From assembly GCA_017937845.1 (NCBI GenBank), contig JAGBCV010000065.1, forward strand, positions 1 to 64,000: a stretch of 64,000 bases of DNA, read 5' to 3'. The translations under genes were made by a program, and so were the position numbers. This DNA is from Clostridia bacterium. Its GTDB lineage: Bacteria > Bacillota > Clostridia > Oscillospirales > CAG-272. Below the pieces are notes generated by a model. The model was given only the letters and a program-made list of their open reading frames with translations, did not search any database and had not been told where the DNA came from. Of the stretch, positions 16,221-29,376 are shown one piece after another (within the stretch, counting starts at the first letter, position 1; each line of letters opens with the position of its first letter).

Positions 16221-17906
16221 ATGGATTTTAATGCACTTGCGGAAATGCTCTTTCCGCATATTACAGAAACACCTGCGGATGTGGAAGCGAAATATCCTCC
16301 CAGAAATCTTCCCGAAGGCGCAAAGGTAACGCGCTTTGCTCCCAGCCCCACAGGCTTCGTTCATTTCGGCGGACTTTTCCCGTCCACCGTTGCGGAACGC
16401 CTTGCACATCAGTCGGGCGGTGTATTTTATCTCCGCATTGAAGATACCGACGCCAAGCGCGAGGTAGAAGGTGCGGCTGAGGGTCTTATCAAAACACTCG
16501 CAACCTATGGCATCAACTTTGATGAAGGCGCGATCCTTGACGAAAGCGGTAAGGTTGCAGATAAGGGCGCATACGGTCCTTATAAGCAAAGCATGAGAGG
16601 TCCCATCTATCAGACCTTTGCAAAACAGCTCGTTCGTGAAGGTAAGGCGTATCCTTGCTTCACTACTGAGGAAGAGCTCGATGAGCTTCAGCAGGTAAAC
16701 AAAAAAGAAGAGATCAAAAATACAGACTGGCAGGCAGAAGCCGAAAGCCGCCGTGCGGAAATGCTCGCAAGAAGAAGCTTCACAATGGAAGAAGTGAAAG
16801 AGCATCTTGATGCGGGTCATCCGTTCGTCGTTCGTATCCTTGCAAACGGCGATCCCGAAAAGAAAGTGAAATTCACCGACCTTGTCAAGGGCGCTATCGA
16901 ATTTCCCGAAAACGACGAGGATTTCGTTCTTCTCAAATCCGACGGTATCCCGACCTACCACTTTGCTCATGCCGTTGACGATCATTTGATGGGTACGACA
17001 CACGTTATCCGCGGCGAAGAATGGCTTCCCAGCCTTCCCAAACACGTTCAGCTTTTCTCCTATCTTGGCTTCAAGCTTCCCAAATATATGCACATCGCGC
17101 AGATCATGCGCCTTGACGAAAACGGCAACAAGAAAAAGCTTTCCAAGCGCGATATGGGCGCGAATATGGACGATTACACCCGTATGGGCTATTCTCCCGA
17201 AGCGGTCTGCGAATATGTCATGACGCTTCTCAACTCCAACTATGAGGAATGGCACGCGAAAAACCTTGACAAGCCCTACACCGAATTTCCGTTCAACATC
17301 AAAAAGATGTCCGTTTCCGGCTGTCTGTTTGATTTCAATAAACTCAACGACGTTTCCAAAAATATCCTCTCTCGCATGACAGCGGAAGGGGTCTACGAAA
17401 AGCTTACCGTTTGGGCATCCGCATTCGACCCCGATTTTGCGGAAGCGCTCACGTCTGACAAGGAAATGGCTGTGAAGATTCTCTCCATTGGCAGAGGCGG
17501 TAAGAAGCCGAGAAAGGACCTTGCAACTTGGGCAGATGCAAAACCCTATATGGGCTTCTTCTATGACAAGTTCTTTGCCATCGAAGACGAATATCCTGCG
17601 TTTGATCAGGATATCATCAAGGCAACGCTCGAAAAATTCCTTGAAACCTACAACTATGCAGACGAAATGAACGTATGGTTCGATAAGATCAAAGCGATCG
17701 CCGATAGTCTTGGCTTTGCTTCCGATATGAAGGCGTACAAGGCAAATCCCGAAGCGTTCAAGGGCAACGTCGCTGATATTTCCGCATTTATCCGCGTTGC
17801 GGTAACGGGTAAGCAGAATGCCCCCGACCTTTACACCGTGATGCAGATCATCGGCGAAGAAAAGACAAGAGCGAGAATCAGCGCTCAGATCGATACAATG
17901 AAATAA
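16221..17906 (+). CDS. gltX: glutamyl-tRNA synthetase
   Basis: The 561-residue class I synthetase charges tRNA with glutamate. FAPSPTGFVHFGG at 39-51 is the HIGH region, here reading HFGG, IEDTD is at 73-77, and KLSKR at 306-310 is the KMSKS-type loop. It is longer than the roughly 480-residue common bacterial form, with a 35-residue N-terminal extension and inserts around 140-200. This fits a divergent lineage found in some Clostridia. It lies next to a separate GlnRS gene, so a strict glutamate specificity is expected. Confidence 0.95.
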   Translation: MDFNALAEMLFPHITETPADVEAKYPPRNLPEGAKVTRFAPSPTGFVHFGGLFPSTVAERLAHQSGGVFYLRIEDTDAKREVEGAAEGLIKTLATYGINFDEGAILDESGKVADKGAYGPYKQSMRGPIYQTFAKQLVREGKAYPCFTTEEELDELQQVNKKEEIKNTDWQAEAESRRAEMLARRSFTMEEVKEHLDAGHPFVVRILANGDPEKKVKFTDLVKGAIEFPENDEDFVLLKSDGIPTYHFAHAVDDHLMGTTHVIRGEEWLPSLPKHVQLFSYLGFKLPKYMHIAQIMRLDENGNKKKLSKRDMGANMDDYTRMGYSPEAVCEYVMTLLNSNYEEWHAKNLDKPYTEFPFNIKKMSVSGCLFDFNKLNDVSKNILSRMTAEGVYEKLTVWASAFDPDFAEALTSDKEMAVKILSIGRGGKKPRKDLATWADAKPYMGFFYDKFFAIEDEYPAFDQDIIKATLEKFLETYNYADEMNVWFDKIKAIADSLGFASDMKAYKANPEAFKGNVADISAFIRVAVTGKQNAPDLYTVMQIIGEEKTRARISAQIDTMK

Positions 17907-17927
17907 GGATTCAGATATTTTGGTAGG

Positions 17928-17945
17928 GGAGGAGCTTGCTCCTCC
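17928..17945. repeat. perfect GC-rich hairpin between gltX and glnS
   Basis: GGAGGAGC and GCTCCTCC arms are separated by two bases, with no T-run after them, so this is not a standard terminator. It may be a REP-like repeat or a processing/stability element. Confidence 0.55.
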
Positions 17946-17983
17946 AGAAAACAAGAATTTCCGACAAAAGGAGACTTTATATC

Positions 17984-19651
17984 ATGAGTGAAATTTCCAA
18001 CAATTTTTTATATGAAGCGATCGATGAGGATATCGCTTCGGGTAAGGTAAAAGCAGACGAAATCCATACCCGTTTTCCCCCCGAACCCAACGGTTATCTT
18101 CACATCGGTCATTGCAAGGCAATGATCATCGACTTCGGCACTGCGCGCAAATACGGCGGTAAATGCAATCTCCGTATGGACGACACCAACCCTGCAAAGG
18201 AAGATACCGAATACGTTGATGCCATCAAAGAGGATATCAAGTGGCTCGGCTTTGATTGGGAGGACCGTTTCTATTACGGCTCTGACTATTTTGAAAAGGA
18301 CTACGAGCTTGCCGTCGGTCTGATCAAGAAAGGTCTTGCTTACGTTTGCGAGCTGACTCCCGAGCAGTTCCGTACACCCGAATATGCAGGCAACACCACG
18401 ACTCCTGCCGTTTCTCCTTGGAGAGATCGTCCCATAGAGGAAAGTCTTGACCTCTTTGAACGCATGAAAAACGGCGAATTTCCCGAGGGCAAATATACAC
18501 TTCGCGCAAAGATCGACCTTGCTTCCGGCAACTTCTGTATGCGTGACCCCGTTATTTACAGAATCAAATACGTAGAGCATCACAGACAGGGAACCAAATG
18601 GTGCATCTTCCCGATGTACGACTTCGCGCACCCGATCCAGGACGCGCTCGAGGGCATCACACACTCCCTTTGTTCTTTGGAATACGTCATTCACCGTCCG
18701 CTCTATAACTGGGTCATCGAAAACGTTGACCTTGACTATAAACCCTGTCCTCCCCGTCAGATCGAGTTTGCAAGACTCAATATGACACACACCGTCATGT
18801 CGAAGCGTTATCTCCGCGCACTCGTGGAAAACGGCGTCGTTGACGGCTGGGATGACCCCCGTATGCCCACGCTTTGCGGTCTTCGCCGCCGTGGTTATAC
18901 CGCCGCATCCATTCTCGATTTTATCGAAAGAATCGGCGTTTCCACCTCCAATAGCCTTGTTGACATTCGTCTTCTCGAAAGCTGTATTCGTGAAGAGCTT
19001 AATATGAAGGCTGCTCGCCGCATCTGCGTACAGAAGCCCATCAAGGTCGTGATCGACAACTATCCCGAAGACAAGTTGGAATATTTCTCCGTTTCCAATA
19101 ATCCCAACGATCCCGAAGCAGGAACCAGAGAGGTTCCGTTCACCCGTGAGCTTTACATTGATGCCGAGGACTTTGCCGAGGTTCCGCCTCCGAAGTTCTT
19201 CCGCATGAAGCTAGGCGGCGAGGTTCGTCTCATGGGCGCGTATATCGTAAAATGTGTTTCCATCGAAAAGAATGAAGACGGCTCTGTTAAAGAGATCCAC
19301 TGCACAGCAGACCTTGAAGCAGGCAACGGCAATCCTCTTGACGGCAGAAAGATCAAAGGTACGATCCACTGGCTTTCCGCAAAATACGCAGAGGATACCA
19401 CGCTCGTACTTTACAGCCACCTCTTCACGCTCGAAAACGTTGCGGATATCCCCGAAGGCAAGACCTATGAGGATTATATGGATCCGAACTCTGCGCTCCG
19501 CATTGAAGGCGCAAAGATCGAGCCTGCGCTTGCAAATGCAGAAGCAGGCGAACGCTTCCAGTTCGTTCGTTCGGGCTACTTTGTAAAGGATACCAAAAAT
19601 CCCAATACCTTCAATAGAATCGTAAGCCTCAAGGATGGTTTTAAGGCATGA
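17984..19651 (+). CDS. glnS: glutaminyl-tRNA synthetase
   Basis: The 555-residue enzyme charges tRNA-Gln directly. It shows the GlnRS form of the HIGH motif, PPEPNGYLHIGH at 32-43, MDDTNP at 65-70 and the KMSKS-type VMSKR at 271-275, then the two C-terminal beta-barrel anticodon domains. The frame is open from 17936, but AAAAGGAG before the ATG at 17984 and the family N-terminus set the start. Direct glutaminylation is the exception among Gram-positive bacteria, most of which use GatCAB. The LUD gene overlaps its stop by 4 bases. Confidence 0.96.
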   Translation: MSEISNNFLYEAIDEDIASGKVKADEIHTRFPPEPNGYLHIGHCKAMIIDFGTARKYGGKCNLRMDDTNPAKEDTEYVDAIKEDIKWLGFDWEDRFYYGSDYFEKDYELAVGLIKKGLAYVCELTPEQFRTPEYAGNTTTPAVSPWRDRPIEESLDLFERMKNGEFPEGKYTLRAKIDLASGNFCMRDPVIYRIKYVEHHRQGTKWCIFPMYDFAHPIQDALEGITHSLCSLEYVIHRPLYNWVIENVDLDYKPCPPRQIEFARLNMTHTVMSKRYLRALVENGVVDGWDDPRMPTLCGLRRRGYTAASILDFIERIGVSTSNSLVDIRLLESCIREELNMKAARRICVQKPIKVVIDNYPEDKLEYFSVSNNPNDPEAGTREVPFTRELYIDAEDFAEVPPPKFFRMKLGGEVRLMGAYIVKCVSIEKNEDGSVKEIHCTADLEAGNGNPLDGRKIKGTIHWLSAKYAEDTTLVLYSHLFTLENVADIPEGKTYEDYMDPNSALRIEGAKIEPALANAEAGERFQFVRSGYFVKDTKNPNTFNRIVSLKDGFKA

Positions 19652-23460: not shown

Positions 23461-23467
23461 TATGAAT

Positions 23468-23500
23468 ATAAAAGTCGGCTGAGGCTCAGCCGACTTTTAT
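23468..23500. terminator. strong, nearly perfect palindromic terminator
   Basis: AAAAGTCGGCTGAG pairs with CTCAGCCGACTTTT across a minimal loop, with U-runs possible on both strands. It closes the gltX-to-ycxB unit. Confidence 0.88.
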
Positions 23501-23521
23501 ATTATGGGTTTTGTTCGGATT

Positions 23522-23564: not shown

Positions 23565-23675
23565 GGTATTGGGACTTGTTTAGAATATGACAATATGCCC
23601 AATATATAGTGCGCTTTCAAACAGGTTCCAAAAGTCGAGTTACAAAAAAACAATAACACAAAGGAGGATTTTTCT

Positions 23676-26600
23676 GTGGCGAATTTCAGAAAAAGTCTAA
23701 AAACGCTCGTTCTGTTCGTTCTTGCCGTGGCGATGATATTCACAAATATGAGTATCGCTTTGCCCGTTGTAAGTGCGGCAGATGACACGAGCAGCGAGAC
23801 CTATGTAACTGAGATCAAGGGCGCAAACATGACCATTGGTCAGGATCTGTCCTTGAATTATTACGCGACGCTTGCGGACGAACACAAAGATGCAACGATG
23901 CATTTCGTAATGTCCAATGGCAAAGAGGTTGATGTGAAAGGCGTATATGATGACAATCAGGGCGTATACAAATTCACATTGAATGCGATCCCTCCCCAAA
24001 CGATGGGAGATACGATCGATGCAACCTTGAAACTGGGTGATGAAGTTCTTGATGAACATATCGGTTATAGCGTCAAGGCGTATGCACAATCTCAGTTTAC
24101 GAAATACCCTAACGATGCAGAACTGAAACAGCTTCTCACCGATATGCTTTATTACGGCGAAGCGGCTCAGCTCTATCGTAATTATGAAACAGATGCCCTT
24201 GTTACAAATGATGTACAGGGTATCGGAACACCCTCTGATGAAAGTATTTTGCCTACCGAAAGCGGTATGCTCAATCAAGTCGACCCGAATACGACGGCAA
24301 GATTCACTTCGGCAGGCGTTTGGTTTGACTACAACAACAGATTGTATATCAAATTCAATGCGACCGAAGGCGTTACCGTAAAGGTAAATGGTGAAGCCGT
24401 TACATTTGATGGCGCAATGTATAATACAAACGGTATTTATGCAGTCGATTTTGACAAAGTATATACGTTTGAGCTTTATGAGGGTGAGACCCTTGCGAAT
24501 CGTATCGAATACAGCATCAAAGCATACGTATACAATACGATGAACAAAAAAGGTGAAGACGGACAGCTTACCAATATGGCAAAGCTCGTGCGTGCACTCT
24601 ATGCTTACGGTAAATCTGCAGAAGCTTACAGAGATGCAAAGCCTGAAAACGTGATCGTAGGGGATAACTCTGCTACGACCATCGTCATTCCGACATTGGA
24701 TAATAAGGTGTCGAGCGCAGTTTCCATGTTTACTGAAAACGGTGCCATTACAGCTTATGTTCCTGCGGGCGTTGCGTTGGCAACAGACACAGATACGTTG
24801 ACCTTGAAAGTAAACGACATGGCTGATAGCAAAGCGGAAATTTCTTTGGAAAAGACGGAATCTGCCTTTTCTATCAACGTACATATCGACGGCATTTCTG
24901 CGAATAATGATGTTGCTACGAAGATCACCATCAAGGAACTTCTTCCTGTCGGTCTTAACATGGGTAACTATCGTTTCTATCACGTTGAAAACGGCGAAAC
25001 GGTTGAAATGATTCTTCTTGCTGACGGTGCAACACCTGTTCATAACAATTTTGAATATGACCCTGCAACAGGTGATGTTGTGCTTTATCTCACTTCTTTC
25101 TCTGAAATCGCACTTGTTGCGGATACCAAAAATGCTTGGAATGGTGAGTACGATTATTCTTGGTATACAAATGCAGTTGCGCCTGTTGATGGAGAATCTG
25201 TAACTGAATATACTATTGCCAACGCCGACCAGCTTGCGGCATTTGGTGCAATCGTTGGTGGTATGAATGGACAGACACAGGATTCTTTTGATGGAAAATA
25301 TGTCAAACTCCTTGCCGACATCAACCTTGGTGATGATGAAGAACATAATAATCCGGATCTTATTTTCTATCCTATTGGTTATTACTACACTGAAAATTAT
25401 GAAAACAAAGGTACGGTCTACAGTACAGTTTACCCCTTCAAAGGAACCTTCGATGGTAACGGCAATACGATTTCTAACTTTTACCAGAATACTTGGGAAA
25501 TGAAGGGAGATTATAATGACGGTTATCCTTCAGGCTCTAACCACTACAAAGATGCTATGGGTCTCTTTGGTTATGTTGTAAACGGAACCATCAAGAACTT
25601 GACGGTTGACAATTTTTCCTCTGACGGTGAATTTACACCCACAGGTGTTATCGCGGCATATGCGGACGGCAATTCTAATTTTGAAAATATCGCGATCACC
25701 AACTGTAATCCTCGTGTATATAACACAGGTAATGGCAGTATCATTGGTATTGCAGGCAGTACAAGCGCAGCAAATGATGATCATATCGTCCTTAAAAACA
25801 TTACGGTTGACAACAGCAACAAGATTTCTGCGCTTTGGGGTTCTTGGGACGTAGCGTGTGGCGGTCTTGTAGGTATGTATCGTGGCAATGTAAATGGCGA
25901 TGGTAATGCAACAGGCGATACAATCAACTTTGAAAATTGCCATGTAGCGGCACAGATTGACGTATATAATGACGTTTGCGCGAACTATCAGTACTATGCA
26001 TACCGTTATGCAGGTATGATGATTGGTTCTATTCGTCATAACAAAACAGAAAATGGATACTCTTATCCCAATATGGAGGGTATCACAGCAAGCGATTGTA
26101 CGGTTCACTTTGGCACATGGAATGACTATTACTATTGTGAATTGGTTGATAATACCATTGCATCTTATACACATGATTATCAGATGAGCCGTTTGGTTGA
26201 AATTAAGGCTATAAACGGCACTACTATTACTTATCTTGATGATACAACAGGTACAGTTCCTGTTTCGGGAAGAGCAAACTATGTTATCGTTGACTATACC
26301 AAGGGACATGGTACAGATAACGCGACCTGCTACCATTTCCTTGACGGTGAAGTTTGGAATCATGAAGATGGTGGCAAAGAACCCACCGATATCAATGGCG
26401 ATGGTAATGTGGATAGTAGCACTCTCAAAGAAGATAAACAGCACATTTATCTTGAATTTAACCAGCTCTTTACAGGTTATGGTTGGGGCATTTCGAGCAA
26501 AGGCTTGACAGATTTTGAAGGTATTGAAAATATGGATATCACAGAGGGCGATCAAGAGGAATCTGTTGAAAAATTTAAATCCAAATTCACAGGCGATTTC

Positions 26601-29330
26601 CTCTATCGTGTAGGTAATCAAAATGCTGTTGCGCTTGGTTCGCTCTTTGGTAGCGCGGATGATGTAACCATTGATATGTCTGGTTTTTATGTATCCATTG
26701 AAAATATTGCAGGCAATGCCGCAGGTGAATTTACTTCTAATGCAACTTGGACAAACGGAACTATCCAGTTCACTGGCACAGGTGTTGTGAAAGTTACCAT
26801 TCAGGACTACAATTATTGTAAGCCCACGGAACTTTATCTTGAAGTTGTGGATGCGACGAATGCCATATCTAAAACAGATGTCACATCTAAAAATGTAGTG
26901 CTTCTTAATGATATTTCTGGTGGCTTTACTGTGTCGAATGGATTCTCTCTCTATGGTAACGGTTTCAAGGCTACTTGTTCAGGAGATGGCTCTTATAGAA
27001 GTGCAGCTTTGTCGTATGGTTTTGTTACCGTAGAAACTGGCGGAACGCTTGACAACTTACAGATTATATGTGATATTTTCCCTGAATCCTATATGTATAC
27101 TAACGAAATGAAAGCTGGTTCTGACGGAAGATATCCATATGGATATTCTGCGGTTGTTATAAATGGCAACAGTACAATTTCTAACTGCTATATTTATGGT
27201 GCAAGAAACAATATTTTGGTTGTAGAGGGCAATGTTACAATCAAAAATACTGTAACAGAATGCGGAAGTCTTTCTAATATTCAGATTAAAAGCACTGATG
27301 CTTGCACTGTAACTCTTGATGATGTAACTACAATACAATATATAACACAATCAAAATATGATACATCAAAAAAAGTCATGGGATTTGGTGTGATTGTTGG
27401 TGATAACGAAAGCGCATCTAACCCGACAATTAAACTGCTTGGAGATTTGAAACAGTATAACTGGGTAACACAGACGGAGGCTGACACGTTAAGCAATTCA
27501 TATGCAAAACAAGCCATTGGTAGCGCATTGAACGTGAACGATTATCAGCATACGATAAATGAGACGGTTACTGTTAATATGGGTATTGCTTATCTTAATG
27601 ACAAGACTGCGACTATTACTGATGAACGAGAAAATAAAGAAACTATTCAGTATAAGCTTTCTAGTATATCTATGTTGGGATACACTGGACAAGTATATTC
27701 AATAACCAGTGAAAGCAGTATAACATTTGAATCGAGATATGATCCGAACACTGATGAAGTTATTCCTTATGCACCGAATGCGAACGGATATATTCTTCCA
27801 ACAATTTCATGGAATGCTACCACAAGTAATGCTATAACAACAACAAATGGCTACAATAAAGACCAAAACCGCCCTTTGTGTGAGATTGTCTTTGATTTAG
27901 ATAATATCGAGGGTGGCAGTTATACCTTTAATTTTAACGATTTGAGTGTGAAAAAGCATGGCGTGGACTTGTCGTTTACGGTAAAAGACAGTAATGGAAA
28001 TTTAGTAGATAAGAACGCCAATATTGTTTTGAATCAGCTGTTTAAGGAAGAATATACATTAGAAATTACCGATAATATGATTTATGGTGCAGGTGCTGTA
28101 AAAGAGGATGCTAAAAATTGTTCGTATCCTGTTGTGCTTCAAGCAACTAAAACCAGCATTGAGCCTCCCAAGTTTACCAATGCGGGAACTGCCACAGCAA
28201 TCAGACTTGTTGAAAAAACAGGTGGTGATTGGCGTCCTGCTTACACTGTTCTGACCGGTGTATCTGTTACCTATTGGAGCGCCTCTGAAAGCAAAGTAAA
28301 AACGGTAGACCTTTCGACCTTGTATAACTCCGGTACTATCAATAGCAATGTGTGGACCTATACTTGTGATGATTATACTTTGACCATCACGGGTGGTGCT
28401 GTTCATAGCGATGGCACAACAATTACTCCCGTAGTGGCTAACGATACGCTTTATTTTGCATCTACAAATAAGGCTTTTGGAACTGGTACGACCAGCAGAT
28501 CTATAATTCTCACCTATGTATTTAGTGATAAGAATGACTCCACTACATGGAATCGCACAGAACCAGTTACATATTCCAACCTTGACGAATATGATTATAA
28601 TAGTTTCAAAAATAATGGGACATTAACCAAACCGAGTAGCAGTAGCGGTTGCATCACCCCCGACACCTTTGTCACCCTCGCAGATGGTACACAGGTTCGT
28701 GTCGATTCCTTGACAGGCAATGAAGAACTCCTCGTTTGGAACATGGAAACAGGTAAACTCGACACAGCTCCTATCATGTTCGTTGATAGCGACCCCGAGG
28801 CGGAATATGAAATCGTTCATCTCTATTTCTCCGACGGAACCGACGTAAAGATTATTTACGAACACGGCTTCTGGGATTATGACCTCAATAAGTACGTTTA
28901 CCTTGATGCAAACGCTTCCGCTTATATTGGTCATACCTTTGCAAAGCAGAATGGCGATACTCTTGAAAAGGTTCAGCTTGTGGATGTTGTCATTGAAAAA
29001 GAAATGACAACCGCATGGAGCCCTGTAACAGCGCATCATCTTTGCTACTTTGTAAACGGTATGCTTTCGATGCCCGGTGGTGTAGGCGGTCTGTTCAATA
29101 TTTTCGATGTTGATGCCGATACCATGACATATGACTACGAAGCAATGCAGAAAGATATTGAAACTTATGGACTTTACACCTACGAAGAATTGAATGCGAT
29201 TTGTCCTCTCTCTGAGGAAATGTTCAATGCCGCAGGCGGTGCATATCTTAAGATTTCGATTGCAAAAGGAAATCTTACCGAAGACGAGTTGATTACGATG
29301 ATTAACCGTTACAGCAAATTCTTTGCATAA
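23676..29330 (+). CDS. giant secreted surface protein with C-terminal Hint autoprocessing domain
   Basis: The 1,884-residue protein starts at a GTG behind AAAGGAGG and has a signal peptide (basic FRKSLK, hydrophobic core, cleavage near VVSAAD at 31-36). Two related domains follow (about 40-175 and 205-325), both ending YS(V/I)KAY... and an LLxxM/LxxxL, YGxxA, YR pattern (Tyr131 and Tyr279 equivalent). A region near 500-850 has GLUG-like turns such as FDGNGNTISNFY at about 591. A dockerin-like DINGDGNVD loop lies near 904. After a Ser-rich linker, residues 1659-1884 look like a Hint domain: block A Cys1659 (GCITPDTFVTLADG), block B His1730 (YEHGFW), and HHLCYFVNG at 1787-1795 like block F. The final intein Asn is not seen. 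No LPXTG or SLH anchor is present. Confidence 0.82.
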   Translation: MANFRKSLKTLVLFVLAVAMIFTNMSIALPVVSAADDTSSETYVTEIKGANMTIGQDLSLNYYATLADEHKDATMHFVMSNGKEVDVKGVYDDNQGVYKFTLNAIPPQTMGDTIDATLKLGDEVLDEHIGYSVKAYAQSQFTKYPNDAELKQLLTDMLYYGEAAQLYRNYETDALVTNDVQGIGTPSDESILPTESGMLNQVDPNTTARFTSAGVWFDYNNRLYIKFNATEGVTVKVNGEAVTFDGAMYNTNGIYAVDFDKVYTFELYEGETLANRIEYSIKAYVYNTMNKKGEDGQLTNMAKLVRALYAYGKSAEAYRDAKPENVIVGDNSATTIVIPTLDNKVSSAVSMFTENGAITAYVPAGVALATDTDTLTLKVNDMADSKAEISLEKTESAFSINVHIDGISANNDVATKITIKELLPVGLNMGNYRFYHVENGETVEMILLADGATPVHNNFEYDPATGDVVLYLTSFSEIALVADTKNAWNGEYDYSWYTNAVAPVDGESVTEYTIANADQLAAFGAIVGGMNGQTQDSFDGKYVKLLADINLGDDEEHNNPDLIFYPIGYYYTENYENKGTVYSTVYPFKGTFDGNGNTISNFYQNTWEMKGDYNDGYPSGSNHYKDAMGLFGYVVNGTIKNLTVDNFSSDGEFTPTGVIAAYADGNSNFENIAITNCNPRVYNTGNGSIIGIAGSTSAANDDHIVLKNITVDNSNKISALWGSWDVACGGLVGMYRGNVNGDGNATGDTINFENCHVAAQIDVYNDVCANYQYYAYRYAGMMIGSIRHNKTENGYSYPNMEGITASDCTVHFGTWNDYYYCELVDNTIASYTHDYQMSRLVEIKAINGTTITYLDDTTGTVPVSGRANYVIVDYTKGHGTDNATCYHFLDGEVWNHEDGGKEPTDINGDGNVDSSTLKEDKQHIYLEFNQLFTGYGWGISSKGLTDFEGIENMDITEGDQEESVEKFKSKFTGDFLYRVGNQNAVALGSLFGSADDVTIDMSGFYVSIENIAGNAAGEFTSNATWTNGTIQFTGTGVVKVTIQDYNYCKPTELYLEVVDATNAISKTDVTSKNVVLLNDISGGFTVSNGFSLYGNGFKATCSGDGSYRSAALSYGFVTVETGGTLDNLQIICDIFPESYMYTNEMKAGSDGRYPYGYSAVVINGNSTISNCYIYGARNNILVVEGNVTIKNTVTECGSLSNIQIKSTDACTVTLDDVTTIQYITQSKYDTSKKVMGFGVIVGDNESASNPTIKLLGDLKQYNWVTQTEADTLSNSYAKQAIGSALNVNDYQHTINETVTVNMGIAYLNDKTATITDERENKETIQYKLSSISMLGYTGQVYSITSESSITFESRYDPNTDEVIPYAPNANGYILPTISWNATTSNAITTTNGYNKDQNRPLCEIVFDLDNIEGGSYTFNFNDLSVKKHGVDLSFTVKDSNGNLVDKNANIVLNQLFKEEYTLEITDNMIYGAGAVKEDAKNCSYPVVLQATKTSIEPPKFTNAGTATAIRLVEKTGGDWRPAYTVLTGVSVTYWSASESKVKTVDLSTLYNSGTINSNVWTYTCDDYTLTITGGAVHSDGTTITPVVANDTLYFASTNKAFGTGTTSRSIILTYVFSDKNDSTTWNRTEPVTYSNLDEYDYNSFKNNGTLTKPSSSSGCITPDTFVTLADGTQVRVDSLTGNEELLVWNMETGKLDTAPIMFVDSDPEAEYEIVHLYFSDGTDVKIIYEHGFWDYDLNKYVYLDANASAYIGHTFAKQNGDTLEKVQLVDVVIEKEMTTAWSPVTAHHLCYFVNGMLSMPGGVGGLFNIFDVDADTMTYDYEAMQKDIETYGLYTYEELNAICPLSEEMFNAAGGAYLKISIAKGNLTEDELITMINRYSKFFA

Positions 29331-29335
29331 TTGAT

Positions 29336-29376
29336 AAAAGCCGTTACATATCCCTCGTGGGTATGTAACGGCTTTT
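29336..29376 (+). terminator. intrinsic terminator of the large secreted protein
   Basis: AAAAGCCGTTACATA (29336-29350) pairs with TATGTAACGGCTTTT (29362-29376) around a short GC-containing loop. Confidence 0.88.

Follow-up and report, generated by a model that had tools for sequence, protein, structure and literature searches.

The last 226 residues of a 1,884-residue exported protein of a Clostridia genome are predicted to form a Hint domain followed by a small helical domain, hereafter the C-domain. This tail probably serves exported proteins of gut Clostridia as an interchangeable C-terminal processing tag, and it probably represents an unrecognised self-processing tag, serving either release or attachment of the protein that bears it. 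The gene lies within a stretch of 64,000 nucleotides, referred to here as the window. The part of the protein that precedes the tail is called the carrier, and tail residues are numbered from Cys1, which is Cys1659 of the whole protein. That such a Hog-like module (Hint plus C-domain) passes its carrier to an outside nucleophile has, in our estimation, about an even chance of being correct.

Gene context and fold of the tail

Repeats at both ends of the gene (Table 1) lead to its being read as a single-gene unit, and on the nucleotide sequence it appears to be its own transcription unit. Its neighbours are housekeeping genes, encoding glutamyl-type tRNA synthetases, a SufBD-like protein with its ABC ATPase, pyruvate formate lyase and PolC, and none of the genes around it suggests a partner for the Hint carrier. 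The synthetase genes (16221-19648 of the window) are a tandem of two class I Glu/Gln-type genes, at 16221-17903 and 17936-19648. The earlier note had described a giant secreted protein, and the reading frame indeed encodes a carrier between a hydrophobic N-terminal signal peptide and a C-terminal Hint domain that starts at Cys1659. The Cys, the block-B His and the HHLCYFVNG that it had placed in the last 226 residues are read there as Cys1659, IIYEH (H1730) and HHLCYFVNG, and the final Asn of block G and the C-extein are both missing from the tail, as it had claimed.

Table 1. Features of the Hint-carrier gene and its product, in window positions.
Feature	Position	Strand	Basis and remarks
Terminator-like repeat	23465-23503		upstream of the Hint-carrier gene
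Shine-Dalgarno AGGAGG	23662..23667	+	eight bases 5' of the GTG; read from the sequence
Open reading frame	23676..29330	+	GTG start, 1,884 aa, complete
Sec-type signal peptide, residues 1-35	23676..23780	+	translation; exact cleavage site inferred
Carrier, residues 36-1658	23781..28649	+	mosaic, without a Pfam domain
Hint domain, Hint positions 1-142 (Cys1659 on)	28650..29075	+	sub-threshold PF01079, AlphaFold2, Foldseek
Cys1 (C1659), candidate nucleophile of the N-S acyl shift	28650..28652	+	62/62 homologues
Asp46 (D1704), position of the Hedgehog general base D303/D46	28785..28787	+	32/62 homologues; ungapped against 1at0
Block B Ile69-Tyr-Glu-His72, replacing the canonical Thr-x-x-His	28854..28865	+	H72 in 61/62, I/V69 in 61/62
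Block-F-like SPVTAHHLCYFVNGML, Hint positions 124-139	29019..29066	+	no His-Asn after it; compared with Hedgehog
C-terminal helical domain, Hint positions 143-226	29076..29327	+	candidate acceptor-recognition region; AlphaFold2 pLDDT 89, five helices
Inverted repeat, 15-nt arms	29336..29376	+	directly past the stop; likely terminator

Sequence comparison alone is only suggestive of a Hint domain, because the scores of PF01079 ('Hint module'), the sole Pfam match of the protein, lie below the curated Pfam cut-off of 29.7 bits: 19.8 bits for the whole protein (E 6.6e-4), 23.4 bits for the isolated tail (E 5e-5) and 24.4 bits at most. The same family is matched at E<=0.1 by 15 of 28 homologues. 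Searching the PDB by sequence produced no convincing relative of the Hint domain; the top match, YopX, had an E-value of 0.038 and was taken as chance.

A structural prediction, which the earlier note had expected to give a Hint fold, did so. AlphaFold2, supplied with an alignment of 28 tails (that of the window and 27 from other genomes), returned a tail model with a mean pLDDT of 94.1 and a pTM of 0.89. The best PDB match of this model in Foldseek was the Drosophila Hedgehog 17-kDa autoprocessing domain (1at0; E 4.1e-9, TM 0.78 on the target), followed by a D46H mutant of the Hedgehog domain (6tyy) and then by inteins and BIL domains. PDB matches at E<=1e-3 numbered 63, and the 50 listed are all Hedgehog, intein or BIL. 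Judged by the predicted structure, the Clostridia tail has the Hint fold. Tail residues 1-76 also align with 1at0 free of gaps, with 15 identities (about 20%) and a BLOSUM62 score of 44, a value reached by none of 20,000 shuffles (shuffle maximum 18). In this ungapped register, C1, D46 and H72 of the tail carry Hedgehog's own Hint numbers, and an hhalign comparison of 61 aligned homologues with 1at0 (E 1.1e-4) likewise placed Cys1 on Cys1.

Active-site residues and the C-terminal domain

The Hog-like reading describes a short series of steps. The protein would be exported via its signal peptide, for which the sequence offers strong grounds, and the tail would adopt the Hint fold, with an active site that contains C1, D46 and H72, as conservation and the predicted structure indicate. 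Cys1659 would then attack the preceding peptide bond and leave the 1,658-residue carrier as a thioester. The C-domain would recruit a nucleophile, which D46 would deprotonate as in Hedgehog, so that the carrier would be taken and the 25-kDa tail released; the acceptor may be a hydroxyl or amine of the cell envelope or matrix. None of the homologues has the intein His-Asn at the junction or a C-extein, the chain ending with the C-domain, and because these block-G residues and the C-extein are missing, the tail cannot splice or cut its own C-terminus.

Conservation bears first on whether the domain is active. In an alignment of 62 distinct homologues with a mean column identity of 50% and only four invariant columns, Cys1 is kept in all and H72 in 61, the exception (L028) having Gln there and also lacking D46. 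The Cys1 part is missing only from two degraded copies (L044, L047) and from one truncated at the end of its contig (L011). Both observations argue against a folded but catalytically dead Hint domain that acts as a structural or binding module while the protein stays full length. This reading draws on L028 itself and on position 69, which is Ile or Val in 61 of the 62 homologues, Ser in one and Thr in none; on balance it appears unlikely. In Hedgehog, T326A greatly reduces activity in both steps (PMC9163320). The window protein has Ile in place of the Thr of TxxH, which lowers the certainty that it is active.

D46 is more restricted than C1 and H72, being found in 32 of the 62 homologues, most of the rest having His48. 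In the tree, almost all D46 members fall into one clade, together with a block-F Cys (C132), and homologues outside it mostly combine His48 with Asn132; D46 as a family-wide rule was therefore rejected. The window protein belongs to the clade in which D46 is nearly always kept. The joint change of positions 46/48 and 132 between clades, as read from the alignment, is consistent with contact in the active site and is confounded by descent. Hedgehog Cys143 (Drosophila C400) is not kept, a Met being aligned there in the tail as judged by eye. The residue preceding Cys1 is loose (Ser in 23 of 62 and Gly in 17, with Pro in 2 and Val, Ile or Leu in 4 among the others).

In Hedgehog, D303 (Hint D46) is absent from inteins, unique to Hh, and acts as the general base on the sterol hydroxyl (PMC9163320). 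Cholesterol transfer requires it, whereas cleavage with DTT does not and is more efficient in D303 mutants than in the wild type; H329 (H72) is needed for both steps (PMC9163320). These properties also suit a tentative alternative, self-release, in which the thioester would be resolved by water or by small thiols or sulfide, the carrier shed without any covalent attachment, and the tail perhaps left on the cell. Its first step needs the same residues, and release by thiols or water is plausible because the gut is reducing. The lack of D46 in about half of the homologues, mostly with H48, is what would be anticipated if not every member relied on a specific alcohol acceptor; the DTT cleavage of D303 mutants and the loose residue before Cys1 fit simple cleavage as well. 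However, a conserved and strictly coupled C-domain would be superfluous for pure hydrolysis, D46 persists in nearly all of the clade of the window protein, and no known envelope-binding fold is seen in the C-domain.

The C-domain also modifies the earlier description of the last 226 residues as a Hint domain. A Hint domain is present, but the tail is not Hint alone, since its last ~84 residues form a separate conserved helical domain. This domain closes every complete homologue, the order in all of them being variable linker, Hint, C-domain and stop. No relative of it was found in Pfam, or in the PDB by sequence or by fold, nor was it found without Hint, a search of 146 genomes matching only those known to bear Hint. 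It occupies the place of the Hedgehog sterol-recognition region (SRR) and has no sequence or structural match. We know of no solved SRR structure. The C-domain is strictly coupled to Hint, and homology to the SRR is not seen; by analogy with Hog proteins, in which Hint and the SRR/ARR are coupled likewise (PMC2362128), it is a candidate acceptor-recognition region.

Taken with the occurrence of the module on unrelated exported proteins, D46 at the Hedgehog position strengthens the partly supported interpretation of the earlier note, that cleavage at Cys1659 could transfer the carrier as a thioester to a nucleophile. Counted against Hog-like transfer are the absence of Thr69 and C143, the restriction of D46 to roughly half of the homologues, the loosely conserved residue ahead of Cys1, the lack of SRR homology in the C-domain and the lack of a conserved partner gene. 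A more specific version, a Hedgehog-like transferase tag in which the Cys1 thioester and a D46-activated acceptor attach diverse exported proteins to the envelope or matrix without sortase, and which may relate to the source of eukaryotic Hog, is possible rather than probable.

Carriers, distribution and surface anchoring

The Hint module occurs at 29 loci in 28 Clostridia assemblies, mostly metagenome-assembled and from ruminant and other animal guts. Within the window's family, 17 of 295 genomes have it, as does one of seven in the genus, and up to three copies are found per genome (G355, G408). Across the window's class, 391 genomes gave 15 matches, one of them an unrelated intein. The match in G594 (L062, G594:C19), a weak one, was rejected as a relative: it is an ordinary intein that lies inside a UvrD-like helicase and retains VVHN and a C-extein. 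Contig ends truncate two loci, L011 and L029. The degraded copies (L044:1291-2064 and L047:1441-1800) are apparently frameshifted, with either the half containing Cys1 or the greater part of the domain missing. A phage origin was set aside, there being no relative in IMG/VR and no PHROG match.

An N-terminal hydrophobic export segment is present in all 24 complete homologous carriers. None of these has an LPXTG motif, nor is one read in the C-terminus of the window protein, and no further transmembrane segment is convincing in the 24, the single flag (L017) coinciding with that protein's own export segment. Among the N-terminal parts of the carriers are a camelysin/TasA-like start in L003 and a type IV pilin-like one in L010, both matched just under the curated cut-off, as well as BspA leucine-rich repeats accompanied by Listeria-Bacteroides repeats (L012, L018, L021) and an S8 protease (subtilase; L015). 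Carrier similarity is undetectable in 12 of 40 gene pairs whose Hint identity is at least 75%. Two segments of the window carrier, approximately residues 330-1080 and 970-1658, are also found in Hint carriers whose N-termini differ. The carrier region adjoining the window Hint is found in seven of 146 genomes, six of them with Hint; in the seventh (G065), the homologous carrier protein ends without it. Two Hint tails of one locus, L017:10001-10696 (+) and L017:12284-12979 (-), lie on opposite strands, are nearest neighbours in the tree and sit on different carriers, a pattern that likely reflects the recent passage of the module from one gene to another.

Inspection of 30 loci for a conserved partner gene revealed none beyond the carriers. 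Four loci share a neighbour gene with a TasA/camelysin-like start, as judged by eye (L001:12759-13736; also L002, L003 and L027), an arrangement suggesting that fibre-forming gene clusters include some of the carriers; a small protein is shared as a neighbour in four other loci. Such neighbours, and the camelysin/TasA-like or pilin-like N-termini of some carriers as possible fibre formers, would suit capture of the thioester by an amine of a neighbour protein or carrier, cross-linking a surface layer or fibre through an isopeptide-type product. With no acceptor protein conserved across loci and no receptor domain common to the carriers, cross-linking of this kind is quite improbable.

Anchoring without sortase, as proposed in the earlier note, would fit the lack of a sortase match in the genome, and the wider comparison is a weak test of it. 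No sortase match was found in the window's genome or in its six genus relatives, and the relatives without sortase are also without Hint. In the family, sortase is present in 5 of 17 Hint-bearing genomes versus 151 of 278 others (Fisher p=0.077, no phylogenetic correction; p=0.099 among high-quality genomes), an inverse association that is not significant, and Hint as a sortase replacement was rejected on this ground. SLH was matched twice in the window's genome, on two contigs, which shows that another anchoring route is present.

Relation to known Hint systems and significance

The Clostridia module resembles Hedgehog Hog (1AT0) in its Hint fold, its C1/D46/H72 positions, its exported precursor, its place at the extreme C-terminus and the extra helical region past Hint, in the place of the SRR/ARR. 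As with the Hog proteins of nematodes and protists, its N-terminal partners vary (PMC2362128). Unlike Hog, it is bacterial, lacks T69 and C143, and is about 20% identical (15/76). BIL domains A and B (e.g. C. thermocellum 2LWY; Foldseek E 9e-7) share the Hint fold and sit in variable bacterial proteins, Clostridia included, but they keep a C-terminal junction to cleave or splice, which the Clostridia tail lacks. Hint-like C-terminal domains on some secreted bacterial proteins have been described as yet another subgroup (Burglin 2008, PMC2362128). Those of Myxococcus, Stigmatella, Photorhabdus and Serratia (PMC2362128; earlier Dassa and Pietrokovski) are likewise bacterial, very C-terminal and of roughly Hog-like length, some with signal peptides; compared by description, they differ in having one weakly similar N-terminal region and in belonging to proteobacteria and myxobacteria.

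PT-HINT domains (PF07591) share the Hint fold and exported carriers, but a variable toxin follows them and TxxH and VLVHN are kept, whereas the Clostridia tail is constant and lacks HN. A toxin-delivery HINT of this type, or an intein or BIL remnant, would belong to the same superfamily, and the window's genome does hold a separate PT-HINT protein. Such an origin is nevertheless highly improbable for the Clostridia module: block-G His-Asn is missing and no toxin domain lies downstream, a constant C-domain behind varying N-terminal parts is the reverse of polymorphic toxins, and the neighbourhood suggests neither toxicity of the C-domain nor a downstream immunity gene. The PT-HINT member itself (L072:2-625; G000:C56:2-625), whose start is lost at the contig start, carries TTNEHPF and VLVHN ahead of a domain that contains FAHHVFPQQF; it is probably the end of a polymorphic-toxin-like protein unrelated to the Hint carrier.

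If transfer is true, LPXTG/sortase signals provide a further parallel as mobile C-terminal tags on diverse exported carriers that pass through a thioester to a nucleophile, but the Clostridia tail has no separate transpeptidase, LPXTG or C-terminal transmembrane helix. The Clostridia module is thus neither an intein, a BIL domain, a toxin-HINT nor a true Hog, but a variant of Hint autoprocessing. A protein ending in Hint is not unheard of, since C-terminal bacterial Hint domains are already in PMC2362128. No description of the Clostridia family of Hint plus C-domain was found in a search of mostly open-access literature; new relative to the searched papers are the Hedgehog-type D46, the private C-domain and the shuffling over many gut-Clostridia carriers.

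If the module both cleaves and transfers, it would provide uncultured gut bacteria with a sortase-independent form of surface attachment and would be a bacterial equivalent of Hedgehog lipidation that relies on the same general base. If release of its carriers is all that it does, it would still represent a common rule by which many large exported proteins that lack annotation mature, and would offer protein-thioester chemistry a small domain.
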